The position numbers and the translations under genes were made by a program. This document shows positions 8,690 through 43,023 of a stretch of 64,000 nucleotides of DNA, one piece after another. Source of the DNA: a bacterium BMS3Abin14 (GTDB lineage Bacteria; BMS3Abin14); assembly GCA_002897695.1 (NCBI GenBank), contig BDTG01000010.1, forward strand, positions 1 to 64,000, given 5' to 3'. How positions within the stretch are numbered: position 1 is the first letter of the stretch; each line of letters begins with the position of its first letter. Under the pieces are notes generated by a model. That model was not told the origin of the DNA. It did no database searches and saw only the letters and a list, made by a program, of their open reading frames with translations.

Positions 8690-10899
8690 ACCACAAAAAG
8701 AAACTTAAACTGCTCCTGGCCTGTATTCTGGTATTAATGGCCACTCTTGTTGGATACAAGGTTTATCTCTTTATTTATGAAACGGATTACGAAGCGCTCA
8801 ACGCCGACCATATTGACCAGATCGAGGCCCGCCTCAAGGGTAAAGACACCTTCAAATTCGCCGTTGTCGGCAATATCAGGAATTCCATACGGATCTTCGA
8901 TGAGCGCATCATGCCCATGATCAGGGATAAGGGAGTGGATTTTATTATCTCGGCCGGAAACGCCGTGTACGACGGTGCGGAAGATAAATACCGGTTGCTG
9001 TACCGCGGATTGCAGAAACTGGGCATCCCGTACGTGCTGGCCGCCGGGCACAATGAGGTCGAAGATTTCGGAGCGAGCAAATTTTATCGACATTTCGGGC
9101 CGTATTTCTTTTCTTTCCATCTTGAAAACGCCTATTTCATCTTCCTTGATTCAACCGGTCAAACGTCGTGGAAATGGCAGATACGATGGTTGCAGCAGGA
9201 ATTGATGATGGCCGGAAAATATCCGTACCGGTTTGTGGTTCTGGGCCGTTCCCTGTTTCCTTTGCCGGGTTTTGATCCAGATGAAACCAGATATGTTCTG
9301 GAAAAAAACCTCAGCCGGAACCTGCAGAGCCTGTTCTCCCGGTACCGGGTAACGGCGGTTTTTTCGGCCGGCTATCCCACTTACCGTGAGACCGTTGCAC
9401 AAGGGGTCCGGTATTTCGTATCGGGTGGCGGCGGCGGGCTGCTTCTCGGGCAGGGAAAAGACCGTTACCAGTTTGTAAATGTGGAAGTGGGTCCGGACAA
9501 CGTAACCTGTGAAAACGTGGCCGCCCCCCACCGGCCAGGTACGTTGGGCTACCAGTTGGAGACCCTGGGGCTTTTCCTGCACTCCTTATTTTACATCAGC
9601 CTGTTTAACTTTCTGGCGGCCCTTGGTGTCATCAGCCTCATCGCCCTGAAGGTATACTCGCTGATTATCCGCCAGGAGCACCTGTACCGTGATTTCAGTA
9701 TTGATGAAGATGCACTCTCAAAATCACCGCTTCGCGTGGCCATGTTCACCAACAATTACCTTCCGTTTATCGGCGGAGTGCCCCTCTCCATTGACCGGCT
9801 TCATCGAGGGCTCGTTCAGCTGGATGCGGCGGCGGTGAAGGTTTTCGCGCCAACCTATCCGCAAGAATGGCCGGACCCCGGGGATGGCAGTGTCTTCCGG
9901 TGTCCCGCACTTTTTTATGCCCATTTGAACAACTCTCCAGTTGCCAATATCTTTTCCCGAAAAATTGACATGGTTTTTAAAACCTTTGACTGCGACCTGG
10001 TTCATGTCCACCATCCTTTCTGGCTTGGCCGGAAAGGAATGCGGCTTGCCAGGAAATACGGGATACCGGTGGTTTTCACCTATCACACCCGGCTGGAACG
10101 CTATATGAATTATATCCCTCTACCGGGTACGGTTCTAAAAAGCCTTGCCGCCCATTTCCTGATCAAGCACTTTGCCAACAGGTGCGATGCTATTATCACA
10201 CCCACGTCCTCCACGGAGGAATATCTGAGGAACCTTGGCGTCAGCGCCCTGATCGAAACGATTCCCACCGGTATCAACATCGGGGATTATAAGCGCTGGT
10301 CTCCACAACAGGTTCAGGCTTTGCGGAGTAAATATGCCCCCTCAGGCGAACGCCTTTTGATCAGCGTTTCACGAATGGCGAAAGAGAAAAATCTCGATTT
10401 TTTAATCGACGGGCTGGCGAAAGTGAAAAGTCGGACACACACACCGTTTAAATGCCTGCTGGTGGGAGACGGTCCTGAAAAAAGCCGGCTTGAGGAAAAA
10501 GTTGCCAGCCTTGGCATGGATGACCGGGTTGTTTTTGCCGGGAATGTGGAGCCGCATGGGGTTGTCGGCTGTTACCTGGCCGCCGACCTTTTCGTGTTTG
10601 CCTCGACCTCCGAGACGCAGGGAATGGTTTTGCTGGAAGCCATGGCCGGTGGTTGTCCGGTAGTGGCGGTGCGAGCCAGCGGCGTCTACGACGTGGTCAA
10701 AGACGGCTACAATGGATTCAAGGTTGCGGAAAGTACCGAGAGCTGGGCCGAAGCGGTTGCAAATCTTTTAGAGGACGGTCAACAGCTATCGGTCTTGTCC
10801 GGGAACAGCCTGGTATTTGCCGAGGACTATTCCATGGAAAAAATCACGGAAAAGGTCTTAAGACTTTATCGGCGGGTAGTTGTCCTCGCTCAATCATAA
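8686..10899 (+). CDS. Membrane fusion: degenerate calcineurin-like phosphoesterase and GT4 glycosyltransferase
   Basis: 737 residues. A helix at about 8-29 anchors the chain. Residues about 55-265 have the order of a calcineurin-like metallophosphoesterase, but its metal ligands are altered: GNIRNS replaces the first GDxH-like motif, GNAVYDG replaces GDxxxxG, GHNE replaces GNH[DE], and no GHxH is visible. A second helix lies near 300-325. Residues about 348-737 are a GT4 (GT-B) glycosyltransferase: RVAMFTNNYLPFIGGVPLSI, DLVHVHHPF, SRMAKEKNLDFLI, LVGDGPE and the ETQGMVLLEAMAGG donor site. It closes the lipid operon and probably glycosylates a lipid at the membrane. The phosphoesterase half may be a binding domain. 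Donor and acceptor are unknown. Confidence 0.82.
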   Translation: MNHKKKLKLLLACILVLMATLVGYKVYLFIYETDYEALNADHIDQIEARLKGKDTFKFAVVGNIRNSIRIFDERIMPMIRDKGVDFIISAGNAVYDGAEDKYRLLYRGLQKLGIPYVLAAGHNEVEDFGASKFYRHFGPYFFSFHLENAYFIFLDSTGQTSWKWQIRWLQQELMMAGKYPYRFVVLGRSLFPLPGFDPDETRYVLEKNLSRNLQSLFSRYRVTAVFSAGYPTYRETVAQGVRYFVSGGGGGLLLGQGKDRYQFVNVEVGPDNVTCENVAAPHRPGTLGYQLETLGLFLHSLFYISLFNFLAALGVISLIALKVYSLIIRQEHLYRDFSIDEDALSKSPLRVAMFTNNYLPFIGGVPLSIDRLHRGLVQLDAAAVKVFAPTYPQEWPDPGDGSVFRCPALFYAHLNNSPVANIFSRKIDMVFKTFDCDLVHVHHPFWLGRKGMRLARKYGIPVVFTYHTRLERYMNYIPLPGTVLKSLAAHFLIKHFANRCDAIITPTSSTEEYLRNLGVSALIETIPTGINIGDYKRWSPQQVQALRSKYAPSGERLLISVSRMAKEKNLDFLIDGLAKVKSRTHTPFKCLLVGDGPEKSRLEEKVASLGMDDRVVFAGNVEPHGVVGCYLAADLFVFASTSETQGMVLLEAMAGGCPVVAVRASGVYDVVKDGYNGFKVAESTESWAEAVANLLEDGQQLSVLSGNSLVFAEDYSMEKITEKVLRLYRRVVVLAQS

Positions 10900-25587: not shown

Positions 25588-25611
25588 TGATGACTTCGCA
25601 AAAGGTCATCA
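25588..25611. repeat. Short palindromic repeat, copy A
   Basis: TGATGAC TTCGCAAAAG GTCATCA, a seven-base stem with a ten-base loop. A close relative (TGATGTTTTCGCAAAAAGTCATCA) lies at 38831-38854 after polA. Probably a dispersed intergenic element. Confidence 0.6.
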
Positions 25612-25625
25612 ATGCTCCCATTGAG

Positions 25626-38830: not shown

Positions 38831-38854
38831 TGATGTTTTCGCAAAAAGTCATCA
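38831..38854. repeat. Short palindromic repeat, copy B
   Basis: TGATGTTTTCGCAAAAAGTCATCA, related to the copy at 25588-25611. It lies immediately after the polA stop and before the ceramide operon; a following AAAGGACTTTTT could act as a weak terminator. Confidence 0.55.
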
Positions 38855-38915
38855 AAGGACTTTTTACCGCTCCATCAACGTTGACCGTTCTTAAGCCAAT
38901 GTGGTACGTTTTCCC

Positions 38916-39908
38916 ATGATTAACCGGGATATCCGTACCTGTTTCGTTACCGGTGGAACAGGATTTATCGGAAGCCACCTGGTGGACCATCTTCTCAAAC
39001 AGGGGGTAGAGGTACGGTGCCTGGTCAGGAGACCGTCCAATCTCAGGTGGCTGGCGGGGCGGCCCGTCCGTATTATAAACGGGGATCTTGCCTCTGAAGA
39101 GGCCTTGGCGGAAGGTGTAGCCGGGGTCGATGCGGTGTTTCACCTTGCTGGACTCGTTGCCGCGAGAAACCGGGAGGAATACTTCAGGGTTAACGCGGAA
39201 GGATGCCGGAGCCTGGCTAAGGCTGTTGGGCAGGCAGGGGAACGCGACACAGTCCTTGTCTACGTTTCAAGCCTGGCTGTTTCCGGGCCAAGCGAGGCGG
39301 AGAAAGCGCTTACAGAGGAGGAGCCACCGGAGCCCATCACTTCTTACGGGATGAGCAAGCTTGAGGGAGAAAGAGCTCTGGGGGCCGCCGGGGGCCGACC
39401 TGTTGTAATTGTCAGGCCCCCCGCAGTGTACGGTCCGAGAGACAGGGAAATTCTCCCCTTTTTCCGCATGGGAAACAGAGGGTTCTTTCCCCTCATTAAC
39501 GCTGGAGCGCGCCTCAGCCTTGTTCATGTGGTGGACTTGGCCAGGGGAATACATCGGGTCGCATGCTCCGGCGGAGCCGGTGAGACCTACTTCATCACCG
39601 GAAAAGAGATCGTCGGGATTTCCGACATGCCTCGGCTGCTTTCGGGGGCTCTTGGAAAAAAAGTGAGAGGGATAAAGGTTCCATCTGGCCTGGTGAGCGC
39701 AGTAGCGGGCCTTTCCGAGGCGTGGGGAAGGGTCAGTGGCCGGATGCCTGTTTTTAACAGGGACAAGGCCAGGGAATTGGCTGCGTCCGGCTGGGTGTGC
39801 AGTCCTGCCAAAGCGCTGAGAGATCTTTCGTTCCAGTCTGAGATCAGCATTGAGAATGGTTTTTCGCAGACAGTTCAATGGTACAGGGAGAACAACTGGA
39901 TCAGTTAA
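38916..39908 (+). CDS. NAD(P)-dependent epimerase/dehydratase-fold reductase, candidate 3-oxo-ceramide reductase (CerR-like)
   Basis: 330 residues from ATG 38916; GTG 38901 is in frame. Extended SDR: the Rossmann motif CFVTGGTGFIGSHLVDHLL at the N-terminus, FHLAGLVAARNREEYFRVNAEG, the active YGMSKLEGE (Tyr and Lys of YxxxK near 150), VRPPAVYGPRD and a C-terminal substrate region. In Caulobacter an enzyme of this class, CerR, reduces oxidised ceramide made by Spt and bCerS. Genes for both those partners follow here directly (21 and then 9 bases apart), which is the main reason for this call. Without that context it would only be a generic sugar-epimerase-like reductase. Confidence 0.75.
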   Translation: MINRDIRTCFVTGGTGFIGSHLVDHLLKQGVEVRCLVRRPSNLRWLAGRPVRIINGDLASEEALAEGVAGVDAVFHLAGLVAARNREEYFRVNAEGCRSLAKAVGQAGERDTVLVYVSSLAVSGPSEAEKALTEEEPPEPITSYGMSKLEGERALGAAGGRPVVIVRPPAVYGPRDREILPFFRMGNRGFFPLINAGARLSLVHVVDLARGIHRVACSGGAGETYFITGKEIVGISDMPRLLSGALGKKVRGIKVPSGLVSAVAGLSEAWGRVSGRMPVFNRDKARELAASGWVCSPAKALRDLSFQSEISIENGFSQTVQWYRENNWIS

Positions 39909-39928
39909 GGCCAACGAGGAGGATAAAA

Positions 39929-41110
39929 GTGGGAATTTTCAACAAATGTTATCAGCTCGAACGGCTCCAGCAGGCGCGAGAGGCTGGTCTGTACCCCTAC
40001 TTCAGGGTTATCGAGTCGCAGCAGGACCCGGAAGTTGTAATAGACGGTAAAAAGGTGATCATGTGCGGTTCCAACAACTACCTGGGTCTTACCTCCCATC
40101 CCAGGGTAAAGGAGGCCGCCATCGCAGCAACCAGGAAATACGGCACCGGATGTGCCGGCTCACGTTTTCTCAACGGGACCCTGGACATCCACGTCGAGCT
40201 GGAGGAAAAACTTGCAACGTTTTTCCGCAAGGAAGCCGCTCTGGTTTTTGCAACCGGTTATCAGACTAACCTCGGAGTTATCTCGGCGCTTGTGGGCAGG
40301 GGCGATGTAGCTGTCAGTGATCGTCAGAATCACGCCTCAATCGTGGATGGATGCAAGTTGAGCTATGGAGAGATAAGAAAGTTTCGCCACAACGACATGG
40401 AGGATCTTGACCGGATTCTGGAGAGTGAACAGGATCGGAACAAACTGATCATCGTTGACGGTGTATTTTCCATGGAGGGTGATATCGCCCCCCTTCCTGA
40501 AATTATCGCAATGAAGAAGAAACACGATTTCGGGATCATGGTGGACGATGCCCACGGTGTGGGTGTCCTGGGTGAGTCCGGAAGAGGAACCAGTGAACAC
40601 TTCGGGCTGGAGGATGAGGTTGACGTCATTATGGGGACCTACAGCAAATCCCTGGCGACCATCGGCGGGTTTGTGGCGGCCTCCAATGACATAGTGGATT
40701 ACCTGAAACACACCAGCCGCTCCATGATCTTTTCCGCCAGTCTGAGCCCGGGCAGTGTCGCAGCGGTAAGCGCGGCTTTGGACATTATTGATGAGGAACC
40801 CGAACGCCGGGAGAGGTTGTGGAATCACACGAACAGGATGATGGAGGGGTTCCGGTCCTGCGGTTTTAACGTGGGCCGCGCTGCCACCCCCATTATCCCG
40901 ATCGTGGTAGGGGATGATCTCCTCGCTTTCAAGATGAGCCTCATGCTTCTTGAGGAAGGTGTATTCACCAACCCGGTGGTCAGCCCCGCCACTCCGCTGG
41001 ACAGGGCCCTCATCCGTACCAGCTATATGGCCACCCACACGGAGGCCCAGCTCGACAGGGTCATCGACGCCTTCGTGAAGGTTGGACGGGCCGTAGGGTT
41101 GATTGAGTAG
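39929..41110 (+). CDS. Serine palmitoyltransferase-type alpha-oxoamine synthase (Spt-like)
   Basis: 393 residues from GTG 39929, chosen for GAGGAGGATAAAA upstream and because family members begin with (M)GIF.KC. PLP fold-type I: NNYLGLTSHPRVKEAA, YGTGCAGSRFLNGTLDIHVELEEKLA, the stacking His in SDRQNHASIVDG, MVDDAHGVGVLGESGRGTSEHF, and Schiff-base Lys240 in GTYSKSLATIGGF. The C-terminal PPATPLDRALIRTSYMATHT-like region (here SPATPLDRALIRTSY) is characteristic of bacterial serine palmitoyltransferase. It condenses serine with palmitoyl-CoA or acyl-ACP to 3-oxosphinganine. KBL or BioF are alternatives, but no biotin or threonine genes are near and the flanking cerR- and bcerS-like genes favour Spt. 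Confidence 0.86.
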   Translation: MGIFNKCYQLERLQQAREAGLYPYFRVIESQQDPEVVIDGKKVIMCGSNNYLGLTSHPRVKEAAIAATRKYGTGCAGSRFLNGTLDIHVELEEKLATFFRKEAALVFATGYQTNLGVISALVGRGDVAVSDRQNHASIVDGCKLSYGEIRKFRHNDMEDLDRILESEQDRNKLIIVDGVFSMEGDIAPLPEIIAMKKKHDFGIMVDDAHGVGVLGESGRGTSEHFGLEDEVDVIMGTYSKSLATIGGFVAASNDIVDYLKHTSRSMIFSASLSPGSVAAVSAALDIIDEEPERRERLWNHTNRMMEGFRSCGFNVGRAATPIIPIVVGDDLLAFKMSLMLLEEGVFTNPVVSPATPLDRALIRTSYMATHTEAQLDRVIDAFVKVGRAVGLIE

Positions 41111-41119
41111 AGATTCGCA

Positions 41120-42238
41120 ATGAGCCTGAATGTAGTCGACGCCGAAAGCGGAAGGGCCCATCGGGATTTCATCGGGCTTCCCTGGGCCGTCAATCGCGAT
41201 GATCCCTACTGGGTTCCGCCCCTGAAAAAAGAGGTCGCAAAACTCCTGTCCCCGAAACACCCTTTCTTTCTGCACGCTGAACGAAAACTTTTCCTTGCAA
41301 TGGACGGCAGTCGGCCCGTCGGCCGCATTGCCGCCATCGTAAATCACAACCACAACAAATTTCACGACGAAAAAGCGGGGTTTTTCGGGTTTTTCGAGGC
41401 GTTTCCCGAACCCCGAATATCCTCCATTCTTTTCGCCGCGGCCGAGGGATGGCTCAGGGGAAAGGGCGCCGAATTCGTCCTTGGGCCCATGAACCCCAGC
41501 ACCAATGAGGAGTGCGGCCTTCTGGTGGACAACTTCATGTCCCCGCCCTTCGTGATGATGACCTATAATCCTCCGTACTACATGGATCTCCTCGCGGACG
41601 CCGGATATGCCAAGGCCAAGGACCTTTACGCCTATTCTTTCAATACCAGCCGCACCATCCCTCCCAGGCTGGAGAAGCTTACCAAAAGGATCGAGAGGAG
41701 AGAGAAGGACCTCGTAACCCGACCGGTGGACATGAAGCATTTTCTCCGGGAGATCGAGGTGGTGAAGACCATCTATAACGATGCATGGGAGAAGAACTGG
41801 GGGTTCGTTCCCATGACCGACGCCGAGATGGATCAGATGGCCAGGGATCTCAAGCCGATCATCGTTCCGGAGCTTACCATCCTCGCGTTCATTGGCGAGG
41901 AGCCGGCGGGTTTTATCATGAGCCTTCCGGACTACAATCAGGTCCTGAAGGTACTCAACGGCCGGATGACTCCATGGGGTATCTTACGGGCCATGAGGGC
42001 GGCGAAGAGGATACGGACGGGCCGGTGCATAACCCTGGGTGTGAGGGAAAAGTTCCGGAAACGTGGACTCGAAGCGCCCCTGTTCGCAGCCACCCTGCGT
42101 GCCGGCATTGAAAAGGGCTATCGTTACGGGGAGTTTTCGTGGATTCTCGAGGACAATACCCTGGTAAACGAGACCATAGCCAAAGTCTTCTCCGCTACCC
42201 ATTACAAGACCTACCGGATCTACCGTAAAAATCTGTAG
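41120..42238 (+). CDS. GNAT-like acyltransferase, candidate bacterial ceramide synthase (bCerS-like)
   Basis: 372 residues, ATG 41120. The sequence order matches the family to which Caulobacter bCerS belongs: FIGLPWAVNRDDPYWVPPL at the N-terminus, LLSPKHPFFLHAERKLFLA, GFFGFFEAFPE, VLGPMNPSTNEECGLLVD, MTYNPPYYMDLLADAG and AKDLYAYSF. A C-terminal GNAT-like half has LGVREKFRKRGLEAPLF and SWILEDN. bCerS N-acylates 3-oxosphinganine from acyl-CoA; it is unrelated to eukaryotic ceramide synthase. The gene lies nine bases after spt. A generic GNAT acetyltransferase is the alternative, but the length and block order fit bCerS much better. Confidence 0.8.
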   Translation: MSLNVVDAESGRAHRDFIGLPWAVNRDDPYWVPPLKKEVAKLLSPKHPFFLHAERKLFLAMDGSRPVGRIAAIVNHNHNKFHDEKAGFFGFFEAFPEPRISSILFAAAEGWLRGKGAEFVLGPMNPSTNEECGLLVDNFMSPPFVMMTYNPPYYMDLLADAGYAKAKDLYAYSFNTSRTIPPRLEKLTKRIERREKDLVTRPVDMKHFLREIEVVKTIYNDAWEKNWGFVPMTDAEMDQMARDLKPIIVPELTILAFIGEEPAGFIMSLPDYNQVLKVLNGRMTPWGILRAMRAAKRIRTGRCITLGVREKFRKRGLEAPLFAATLRAGIEKGYRYGEFSWILEDNTLVNETIAKVFSATHYKTYRIYRKNL

Positions 42239-42247
42239 GCGGATATA

Positions 42248-42850
42248 GTGGCGCTCCACGAATTACGGGCCGAGATTCCCAGGACCATTTTCCATGTGGG
42301 GGGCGGTGTCCTGCTCGCTGTTCTGGGGTACGGGCTGCCTGCCCCGTCCAACCGCGTCATCCTGGGAATAATATTCCTTGCTGCCGCTGCGGTGGAGGCG
42401 GGGCGGAAGATGTCCCCCGTTGTCCATGGACTGACGACAAGGTGGCTCGGGGTCTTCATGCGCTCGTCCGAGCGAAACGGTGTGACCGGGGCGCTTACCT
42501 TCGCAGGCGGTATTTTTCTTACCTATCTCCTTTTTCCAAAAGGGATCGCGCTTCCGGCGGTAATCCCCCTGATCGTTGGTGACAGAGCGGCCATCCTCGT
42601 CGGAAAGTGGATCGGTCGGATCAGGATCGGGAAAAAATCCCTGGAGGGAAGCCTGGCCTGTCTGGCCGTGAGCTTCCTGACTTTACAGTGCGTTGCCGGA
42701 TTTGCTCCCCTGGCCGTTCACTACCCGATGATGATACTGTTTGGCGCCTCGGTCGTGGGAACACTGGCAGAAGCCCTTCCCCGCCCATTCGATGACAACC
42801 TGACCATCCCACTGGCTGTGGCTGTGTTTTTATTCGGAGTCGGTGTATGA
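42248..42850 (+). CDS. SEC59/DGK1-type CTP-dependent lipid kinase (dolichol kinase-like)
   Basis: 200 residues from GTG 42248, about five or six helices. The diagnostic C-terminal block is AVIPLIVGDRAAILVGKWIGRIRIGKKSLEGSLAC, with VGDxxAxxxGxxxGR and KKSxEGS, as in Dgk1 and SEC59. These enzymes use CTP to phosphorylate diacylglycerol or dolichol in the membrane. Fused here as the fourth gene of a ceramide operon (nine bases after bcerS), it could phosphorylate ceramide, sphinganine or a lipid made from them. That is inference from operon position. Undecaprenol or diacylglycerol are the other candidate substrates. Confidence 0.78.
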   Translation: MALHELRAEIPRTIFHVGGGVLLAVLGYGLPAPSNRVILGIIFLAAAAVEAGRKMSPVVHGLTTRWLGVFMRSSERNGVTGALTFAGGIFLTYLLFPKGIALPAVIPLIVGDRAAILVGKWIGRIRIGKKSLEGSLACLAVSFLTLQCVAGFAPLAVHYPMMILFGASVVGTLAEALPRPFDDNLTIPLAVAVFLFGVGV

Positions 42851-42879: not shown

Positions 42880-43023
42880 ATGCCCCGGCCTTTTTTTCGA
42901 AAGGCTCTGGGTGATGCCACGCCAATTATTCTCGGGTATATTCCAATGGGAGCTGCCTACGCGAGCTGGGGTATGGGCGCCGGCGGCACGGTGATGTTTC
43001 TCGGACAGGTTATGGTGGGTTGA
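42880..43023 (+). pseudogene. Relic of an AzlC-family branched-chain amino acid exporter
   Basis: A 47-residue frame begins behind GGGGGAGGGG. Its first part, KALGDATPIILGYIPMGAAY, is the conserved start of AzlC-type exporters (PF03591). After about 28 residues the similarity is lost and a TGA follows. An intact AzlC has about 230 residues, and no azlD is present. It is a truncated remnant and probably non-functional. Confidence 0.65.

Follow-up and report, generated by a model that had tools for sequence, protein, structure and literature searches.

A ceramide-synthesis operon joined to a SEC59/DGK1-like membrane protein, a candidate lipid kinase, in bacterium BMS3Abin14 and its phylum

The operon and its genes

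The window considered here is a stretch of 64,000 nucleotides on contig 10 of the 2.28 Mb genome of bacterium BMS3Abin14, and our subject is an operon of four genes at positions 38916 to 42850, all on the + strand. P0001 (38916..39908, +, 330 amino acids) is a CerR-like NAD(P)-dependent epimerase/reductase, assigned by a PF01370 domain and its match to known CerR proteins. It is followed by P0002 (39929..41110, +, 393 amino acids), an alpha-oxoamine synthase of the Spt type, recognized by the model NF047600, by its Protein Data Bank (PDB) matches, and by phylogeny, and by P0003 (41120..42238, +, 372 amino acids), a bCerS-like tandem-GNAT acyltransferase, identified by homology to a Roseomonas CerS and by fold. 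The last gene, P0004 (42248..42850, +, 200 amino acids), encodes a SEC59/DGK1-like membrane protein and presumed lipid kinase, for which linkage, a sequence profile, fold, and a residue signature were considered together. The gaps between the genes are 20, 9, and 9 bases. A prior reading of this DNA (the sequence-only reading) had proposed four genes in one direction with these spacings, and both the coordinates and the strand were borne out.

To place the operon in context we used a sample of 12 species genomes of its small, uncultured, and little-known phylum, all from a single family. The same gene order was found in 12 of 12, as far as the contigs reach: two records (L021 and L022) start within the cluster, a third (L019) is interrupted by stretches of N, and L018 and L020 have a first gene that aligns only in part. 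The gap between the bCerS and kinase genes is −14 to +10 bases in every genome, with kinase identities of 50–80%. Since both the order and this short gap recur throughout the sample, the arrangement is not due to chance. The coupling of P0003 to P0004 is also the tightest in the cluster, the gap between Spt and bCerS ranging from 9 to 259 bases across the phylum and from 71 to 259 in most of the other members. These longer gaps hold only repeat-rich text, with no convincing open frame for an acyl carrier protein (ACP) gene. The genes glnE-ilvE-polA upstream and azlC downstream are often common to members of the family, so synteny alone is no proof of function. No consensus promoter or terminator stood out against shuffled sequence.

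The ceramide triad

P0002 scored 569 bits with the NCBIfam model for serine palmitoyltransferase (SPT), NF047600, which is under the model cut-off of 640, and 404 and 354 bits with the models for BioF and KBL, respectively. Its best PDB match is the SPT 3a2b (447 bits, compared with 285 for KBL). Phylogenetically (68 sequences) it falls within the SPT clade, together with the crystallized bacterial enzymes 3a2b and 2w8t and triad synthases from many phyla, and the split that separates this clade from 8s1y and from the KBL and BioF of Escherichia coli has a support of 100/99. The scores, the PDB match, and the tree rule out KBL and BioF as identities for this protein. The Spt pattern that had been proposed around Lys240 was confirmed. 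This residue, the lysine that binds pyridoxal phosphate, lies in GTYSKS; the motifs NHAS, DDAHG, GTYSK240S, and ALIRTSYMATHT all align with 3a2b, and the key active-site positions are invariant among relatives. The gene begins with GTG, preceded by AGGAGG.

P0002 is the sole alpha-oxoamine synthase of the genome, so neither BioF nor KBL was found there as a distinct enzyme. Biotin may be taken up or made by another route in the source organism.

P0003 has no curated family in Pfam or NCBIfam. For reference we used a plasmid of Roseomonas marmotae (L107), which carries a whole sphingolipid cluster of the Caulobacter type, encoding ACP, Spt, a DAGK_cat kinase, a CDP-alcohol transferase, LptF/LptG, CerS, a nucleotidyltransferase, a fatty acyl-AMP ligase, and CerR (roles assigned by synteny with PMC11324152). 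The CerS of this cluster sits between the LptF/LptG permeases and the nucleotidyltransferase, which is the place of CC_1154, and P0003 is homologous to it over its full length (36.8% identity over 372 columns, E 6e-69). The protein is predicted to adopt a tandem GNAT fold (Foldseek E values down to 2e-12), in a model of moderate confidence with a predicted local distance difference test (pLDDT) score of 73. The proposal that this GNAT-like protein is a bCerS therefore holds against the Roseomonas reference. Its homologues at 41–53% identity are scattered over many different phyla, and the majority adjoin Spt and an epimerase. In a Bacteroidota-like phylum, 285 of 297 genomes carry a member of the family, and the scores fall into two clear classes. 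Homology to bCerS alone is therefore a poor indicator that a member of the Bacteroidota makes sphingolipids; some members of the family may make other N-acyl lipids.

P0001 matches Epimerase (PF01370) with an E value of 2e-35. When the Roseomonas CerR was compared with the genome, P0001 scored 132 bits and the next paralogue 51, and the CerR proteins of Roseomonas, Rubrobacter, Streptomyces, and Pseudomonas each single it out by a wide margin among seven epimerase-like loci. The CerR-like label given to this reductase is upheld by these comparisons. The gene is linked to Spt and bCerS in the genomes where the contig reaches. HpnA, the best NCBIfam match, was rejected as an identity: the score of 170 bits compares with a cut-off of 368, and the CerR proteins choose P0001 over its six paralogues.

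A triad of Spt, bCerS, and CerR makes ceramide in Caulobacter crescentus (PMC11087976, PMC11324152) and has been reported in about 40 phyla (PMC11334938). The operon described here resembles the Caulobacter system in having all three enzymes, from the same families, in one operon, and many relatives in other phyla carry the same triad. Unlike Caulobacter, it lacks genes of its own for an acyl carrier protein or an acyl-ACP synthetase, and it begins with CerR and ends with the SEC59-like gene. Two Spt-bCerS-CerR triads were found on plasmids, in Streptomyces sp. NBC_01001 (L315:4769-8051) and Rubrobacter radiotolerans (L106:6662-10029).

The most common neighbor of the triad in other phyla is a PAP2_3/PAP2_C protein, found at 21 of 80 loci (the profile was built on 14 of the 21, and among the others two are weak or partial). 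PAP2_3/PAP2_C is the superfamily of the fungal inositol phosphorylceramide (IPC) synthase and of sphingomyelin synthase. Such genes lie in or beside triads in Acidobacteria, deltaproteobacterial lines, and Gemmatimonadota (L053:5466-6368, L071:2918-3802, L099:7481-8389, L055:3508-4410, and others), and in Bryobacterales the PAP2 gene is inside the operon, in the order CerR-PAP2-bCerS-Spt. We did not find triad-linked PAP2 genes described in the literature searched. Like these AUR1/IPC synthase- or sphingomyelin synthase-like genes, P0004 is a membrane-bound candidate for lipid tailoring in or beside a triad; it differs from them in protein family and in chemistry. This suggests that bacterial ceramide operons consist of a common core with interchangeable tailoring enzymes.

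The fourth gene and its family

No Pfam or NCBIfam model matched P0004, and the protein and its 11 orthologues showed no Pfam family beyond chance at E values up to 10. A profile built from the 12 kinases picked up homologues in 28 of the 46 genomes or records that carry triad genes; the majority are about 190–270 amino acids long, with E values of 1e-16 to 1e-33. At the weak end of the matches were CdsA-like proteins and a fusion of a SEC59-like protein to DUF92, the family of VTE6-like phytyl-phosphate kinases. Two of the homologues match PF01148 below its cut-off; P0004 itself does not match it. Searched against PDB sequences, the profile gave nothing real, and no relatives of P0004 were found on plasmids. 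The AlphaFold model of P0004 is helical (pLDDT 90), and its top PDB fold is the cytidine diphosphate-diacylglycerol (CDP-DAG) synthetase TmCdsA, with a probability of 0.96 and a TM-score of only 0.39 (E 0.1). Jointly, the profile, the fusion, and the fold, each of them weak alone, support membership in the SEC59/DGK1/CdsA superfamily. The label had previously rested on motifs, and its homology part now stands by profile.

The motifs of P0004 are R12-T13..H16, GDR at 111–113, K130-S-L-E-G-S-L-A137, and D183-N184. With the cytidine triphosphate (CTP)-dependent membrane lipid kinases yeast Dgk1, SEC59/dolichol kinase, and VTE5 phytol kinase the protein shares R..H, GD..A..G..G, K[ST]xEGSxA, and DDN, together with a length of about 200 amino acids and membrane helices. 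Comparison of the 12 kinases with 82 outside homologues identified R12, H16, E75, D112, G119, K130, E133, G134, D183, N184, and P188 as conserved positions of the family. In yeast Dgk1, change of R76 or D177 to alanine abolishes activity (PMC3486869). Judged by motif and by spacing (101 residues in Dgk1 and 100 in P0004, the yeast sequence being unaligned), these residues most likely correspond to R12 and D112.

Two positions set the phylum apart. Position 13, next to the conserved arginine, is threonine in 12 of 12 operon-linked kinases and lysine in 72 of 77 outside homologues, and position 113, which follows the catalytic-type Asp112, is arginine in 12 of 12 and never arginine outside. The combination occurs in none of the 82 outside homologues. 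In a quick tree the 12 kinases form one clade on a long stem (support of 99 in the Shimodaira–Hasegawa-like approximate likelihood ratio test). The phylum kinases thus differ from Dgk1, SEC59, and VTE5 in the threonine that replaces lysine after the arginine, in the arginine after the aspartate, and in their linkage to ceramide synthesis. With a basic residue lost at 13 and one gained beside Asp112, this looks like a rebuilt site, as would suit a new substrate or donor, the alternative being that kinase action was lost.

Elsewhere in the family, a metagenome-assembled genome of Spirochaetaceae encodes PlsY, a glycerol-3-phosphate acyltransferase, fused to a SEC59-like domain (L131:628-1926), a hint that the domain serves glycerolipid synthesis in that organism.

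Lipid kinases in the phylum and the wider distribution of the family

A search for DgkA (PF01219) gave no match in any of the 12 genomes, and PF00781 (DAGK_cat) is clear in only two. The weak PF00781 match in the genome of the window, tried as a DAGK_cat lipid kinase, is NAD kinase, as equally weak matches in other genomes of the phylum probably are. Each genome yielded a single SEC59-like protein, P0004 or its orthologue, which, together with the lack of DgkA and the rarity of DAGK_cat, leaves the operon gene as the sole lipid-kinase candidate among the tested families in most genomes. The expectation that a SEC59-like protein stands in place of the kinase of another family used by Caulobacter agrees with these counts and with its presence in the operon throughout the sample. 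This lone position fits a ceramide kinase replacing CpgB, and also a diacylglycerol (DAG) kinase.

The known bacterial sphingolipid kinases are CpgB, the ceramide kinase of Caulobacter (PMC10331486), and dhSphK1 of Porphyromonas gingivalis (PMC9045371). P0004 would carry out the same step in metabolism, the phosphorylation of ceramide or dihydrosphingosine. CpgB and dhSphK1 are of the LCB5/DAGK_cat type (PF00781), and the protein encoded by the CpgB-like gene in the Roseomonas cluster also matches PF00781; P0004, by contrast, is polytopic in the membrane and belongs to another superfamily, and no DAGK_cat domain was found in it with Pfam at E values up to 10.

No kinase homologue was found in the flanks of 75 related loci from other phyla, so the pairing of bCerS with the kinase was gained in the BMS3Abin14-type phylum. 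The unlinked distribution was followed in two other phyla. In a deltaproteobacterial-type phylum represented by 247 genomes, with E cut-offs of 1e-6 for the kinase and 1e-30 for bCerS, 22 have both the kinase and bCerS, 16 the kinase only, and 42 bCerS only (odds ratio 5.5, p 8e-6). In the 297 genomes of the Bacteroidota-like phylum there is no association at the level of the family, the kinase being present in 165 of 285 with bCerS and 8 of 12 without. Using splits into close and distant bCerS that were chosen after the scores had been seen, and with kinship uncorrected, the kinase is present in 20 of 26 deltaproteobacterial-type genomes with the best bCerS (E up to ~1e-120) and 18 of the remaining 221, and in 162 of 222 Bacteroidota-like genomes with a close-type bCerS and 11 of the remaining 75. 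In those genomes of the two phyla that were inspected for it, the kinase does not adjoin the triad. Its deltaproteobacterial-type neighbors are housekeeping genes (miaA, scpB, rluB, or hemA, names that were read from the sequences and not from a family search).

Interpretation and alternatives

Our preferred reading, to which we assign an even chance, is that this is a sphingolipid operon in which P0004 phosphorylates ceramide or a sphingoid base. We infer the enzyme activities, the nucleotide, and the lipid substrate as follows. Spt would join an acyl thioester to serine (or to alanine, giving 1-deoxyceramide), bCerS would N-acylate the 3-keto base, and CerR would reduce the N-acylated 3-keto product to dihydroceramide. 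By analogy with Dgk1 and dolichol kinase, P0004 would then move a phosphate from CTP onto a hydroxyl of ceramide or of the sphingoid base, and the product would be an anionic sphingolipid or a head-group precursor. This reading is favored by the place of P0004 beside the triad and by the tight bCerS-kinase gap, which is kept in all 12 genomes despite a Spt-bCerS gap of up to 259 bases. It is favored also by the absence of DgkA, the rarity of DAGK_cat, and the single SEC59-like protein in each genome, and by the tailoring-type PAP2 protein that in other phyla occupies a position within or close to the triad. One clade, a long stem, and the T13/R113 pair are as expected after a change of substrate.

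Several observations weigh against it. T13 could mean that activity has been lost, as the neighboring arginine is essential in yeast Dgk1 (PMC3486869). The CerR of Caulobacter is periplasmic (PMC11087976), which would place ceramide, once complete, across the membrane from the CTP of the cytosol; if the same is true here, the kinase may act on 3-keto-ceramide or on the sphingoid base at the cytosolic face. Outside the phylum, the kinase family sits in housekeeping neighborhoods and in genomes without bCerS (16 of the 38 deltaproteobacterial-type genomes that have it, as well as eight of the 12 Bacteroidota-like genomes that lack bCerS). Taken as a whole, the family is therefore not devoted to sphingolipids.

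The main rival is that P0004 is a DGK1-like DAG kinase engaged in phospholipid recycling. Here, PAP2-type transfer of a head group from phospholipid to ceramide would free DAG, and P0004, in cells lacking DgkA, would restore phosphatidate, and so keep company with sphingolipid genes while leaving ceramide untouched. In yeast, Dgk1 phosphorylates DAG in a CTP-dependent manner (PMC3790011), and the absence of DgkA throughout the sample, the frequency of PAP2_3 beside triads elsewhere, and the way in which the chromosomally unlinked kinase tracks close-type bCerS in two other phyla all agree with such a role. Nevertheless, a search for PAP2_3 that covered the window and the surroundings of the cluster in the relatives found none, and recycling alone leaves the tight pairing with bCerS and the T13/R113 pair, found only here, unexplained; we regard the proposal as possible but rather unlikely. 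A kinase of polyprenol or another isoprenoid alcohol, in the role of SEC59 or VTE5 and in a lipid operon by chance, has precedent in the dolichol, phytol, and farnesol kinases of the superfamily (PMC9782597) and in the one homologue fused to DUF92. That fusion, however, is a distant branch of the tree, and neither the co-occurrence with close-type bCerS nor the coupling to bCerS in all 12 genomes is explained by such a role, which we consider improbable. We give similarly little credence to a loss of kinase action, with P0004 serving as a CdsA-like cytidylyltransferase that makes a CDP-lipid or as a membrane protein that binds or flips lipids. The best PDB fold, TmCdsA, and the replacement of the near-invariant Lys13 in every member would suit it, but Arg12, His16, Asp112, Gly119, Lys130 (in 11 of 12), Glu133, and DDN are all kept, which argues for retained catalysis, and the PF01148 match is absent.

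If P0004 is indeed a sphingolipid kinase, a wider proposal can be made, which we offer tentatively. A SEC59/DGK1 clade would have turned into a kinase of ceramide, 3-keto-ceramide, or sphingoid bases, its site rebuilt by the change of Lys13 to Thr and the gain of Arg113, and sphingolipid phosphorylation in bacteria would have one more origin, in a kinase fold embedded in the membrane. Relatives with the usual lysine, unlinked to the triad, may supply unassigned sphingoid-kinase activity in Bacteroidota and other phyla. A mutant of Porphyromonas without dhSphK1 still phosphorylates dihydrosphingosine, by another, unknown enzyme (PMC9045371), and in Caulobacter, anionic phosphorylated ceramides of the outer membrane allow survival without lipopolysaccharide (PMC10331486).

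The sequence-only reading, which is supported in part, had also spoken of a possible new branch of bacterial sphingolipid synthesis. The triad is of a known kind and is itself no such branch. What is new is the SEC59-like partner: bound to bCerS phylum-wide and with an altered site, it is a new variant of the ceramide operon, and our literature search found no published link between this kinase family and bacterial sphingolipids. A SEC59-like protein joined to ceramide synthase across a phylum is a candidate second class of bacterial sphingolipid kinase.

Other observations

A repeat, TTTTCGCAAAAAGTCATCAA, lies just upstream of the operon at window positions 38836-38855. A diverged second copy is found in the window at 25593-25612 (0 expected), and similar text occurs in the Spt-bCerS gap of one relative (L023). 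Judging by these copies, it is a dispersed intergenic element.

Downstream of the operon, at 42880-43023, a frame of about 48 codons runs from the first part of AzlC straight into the last part of AzlD. In a sister genome both AzlC and AzlD are intact and matched by Pfam (L015:9416-10147 and 10144-10476). About 1 kb was either deleted in the genome of the window or lost in its assembly.

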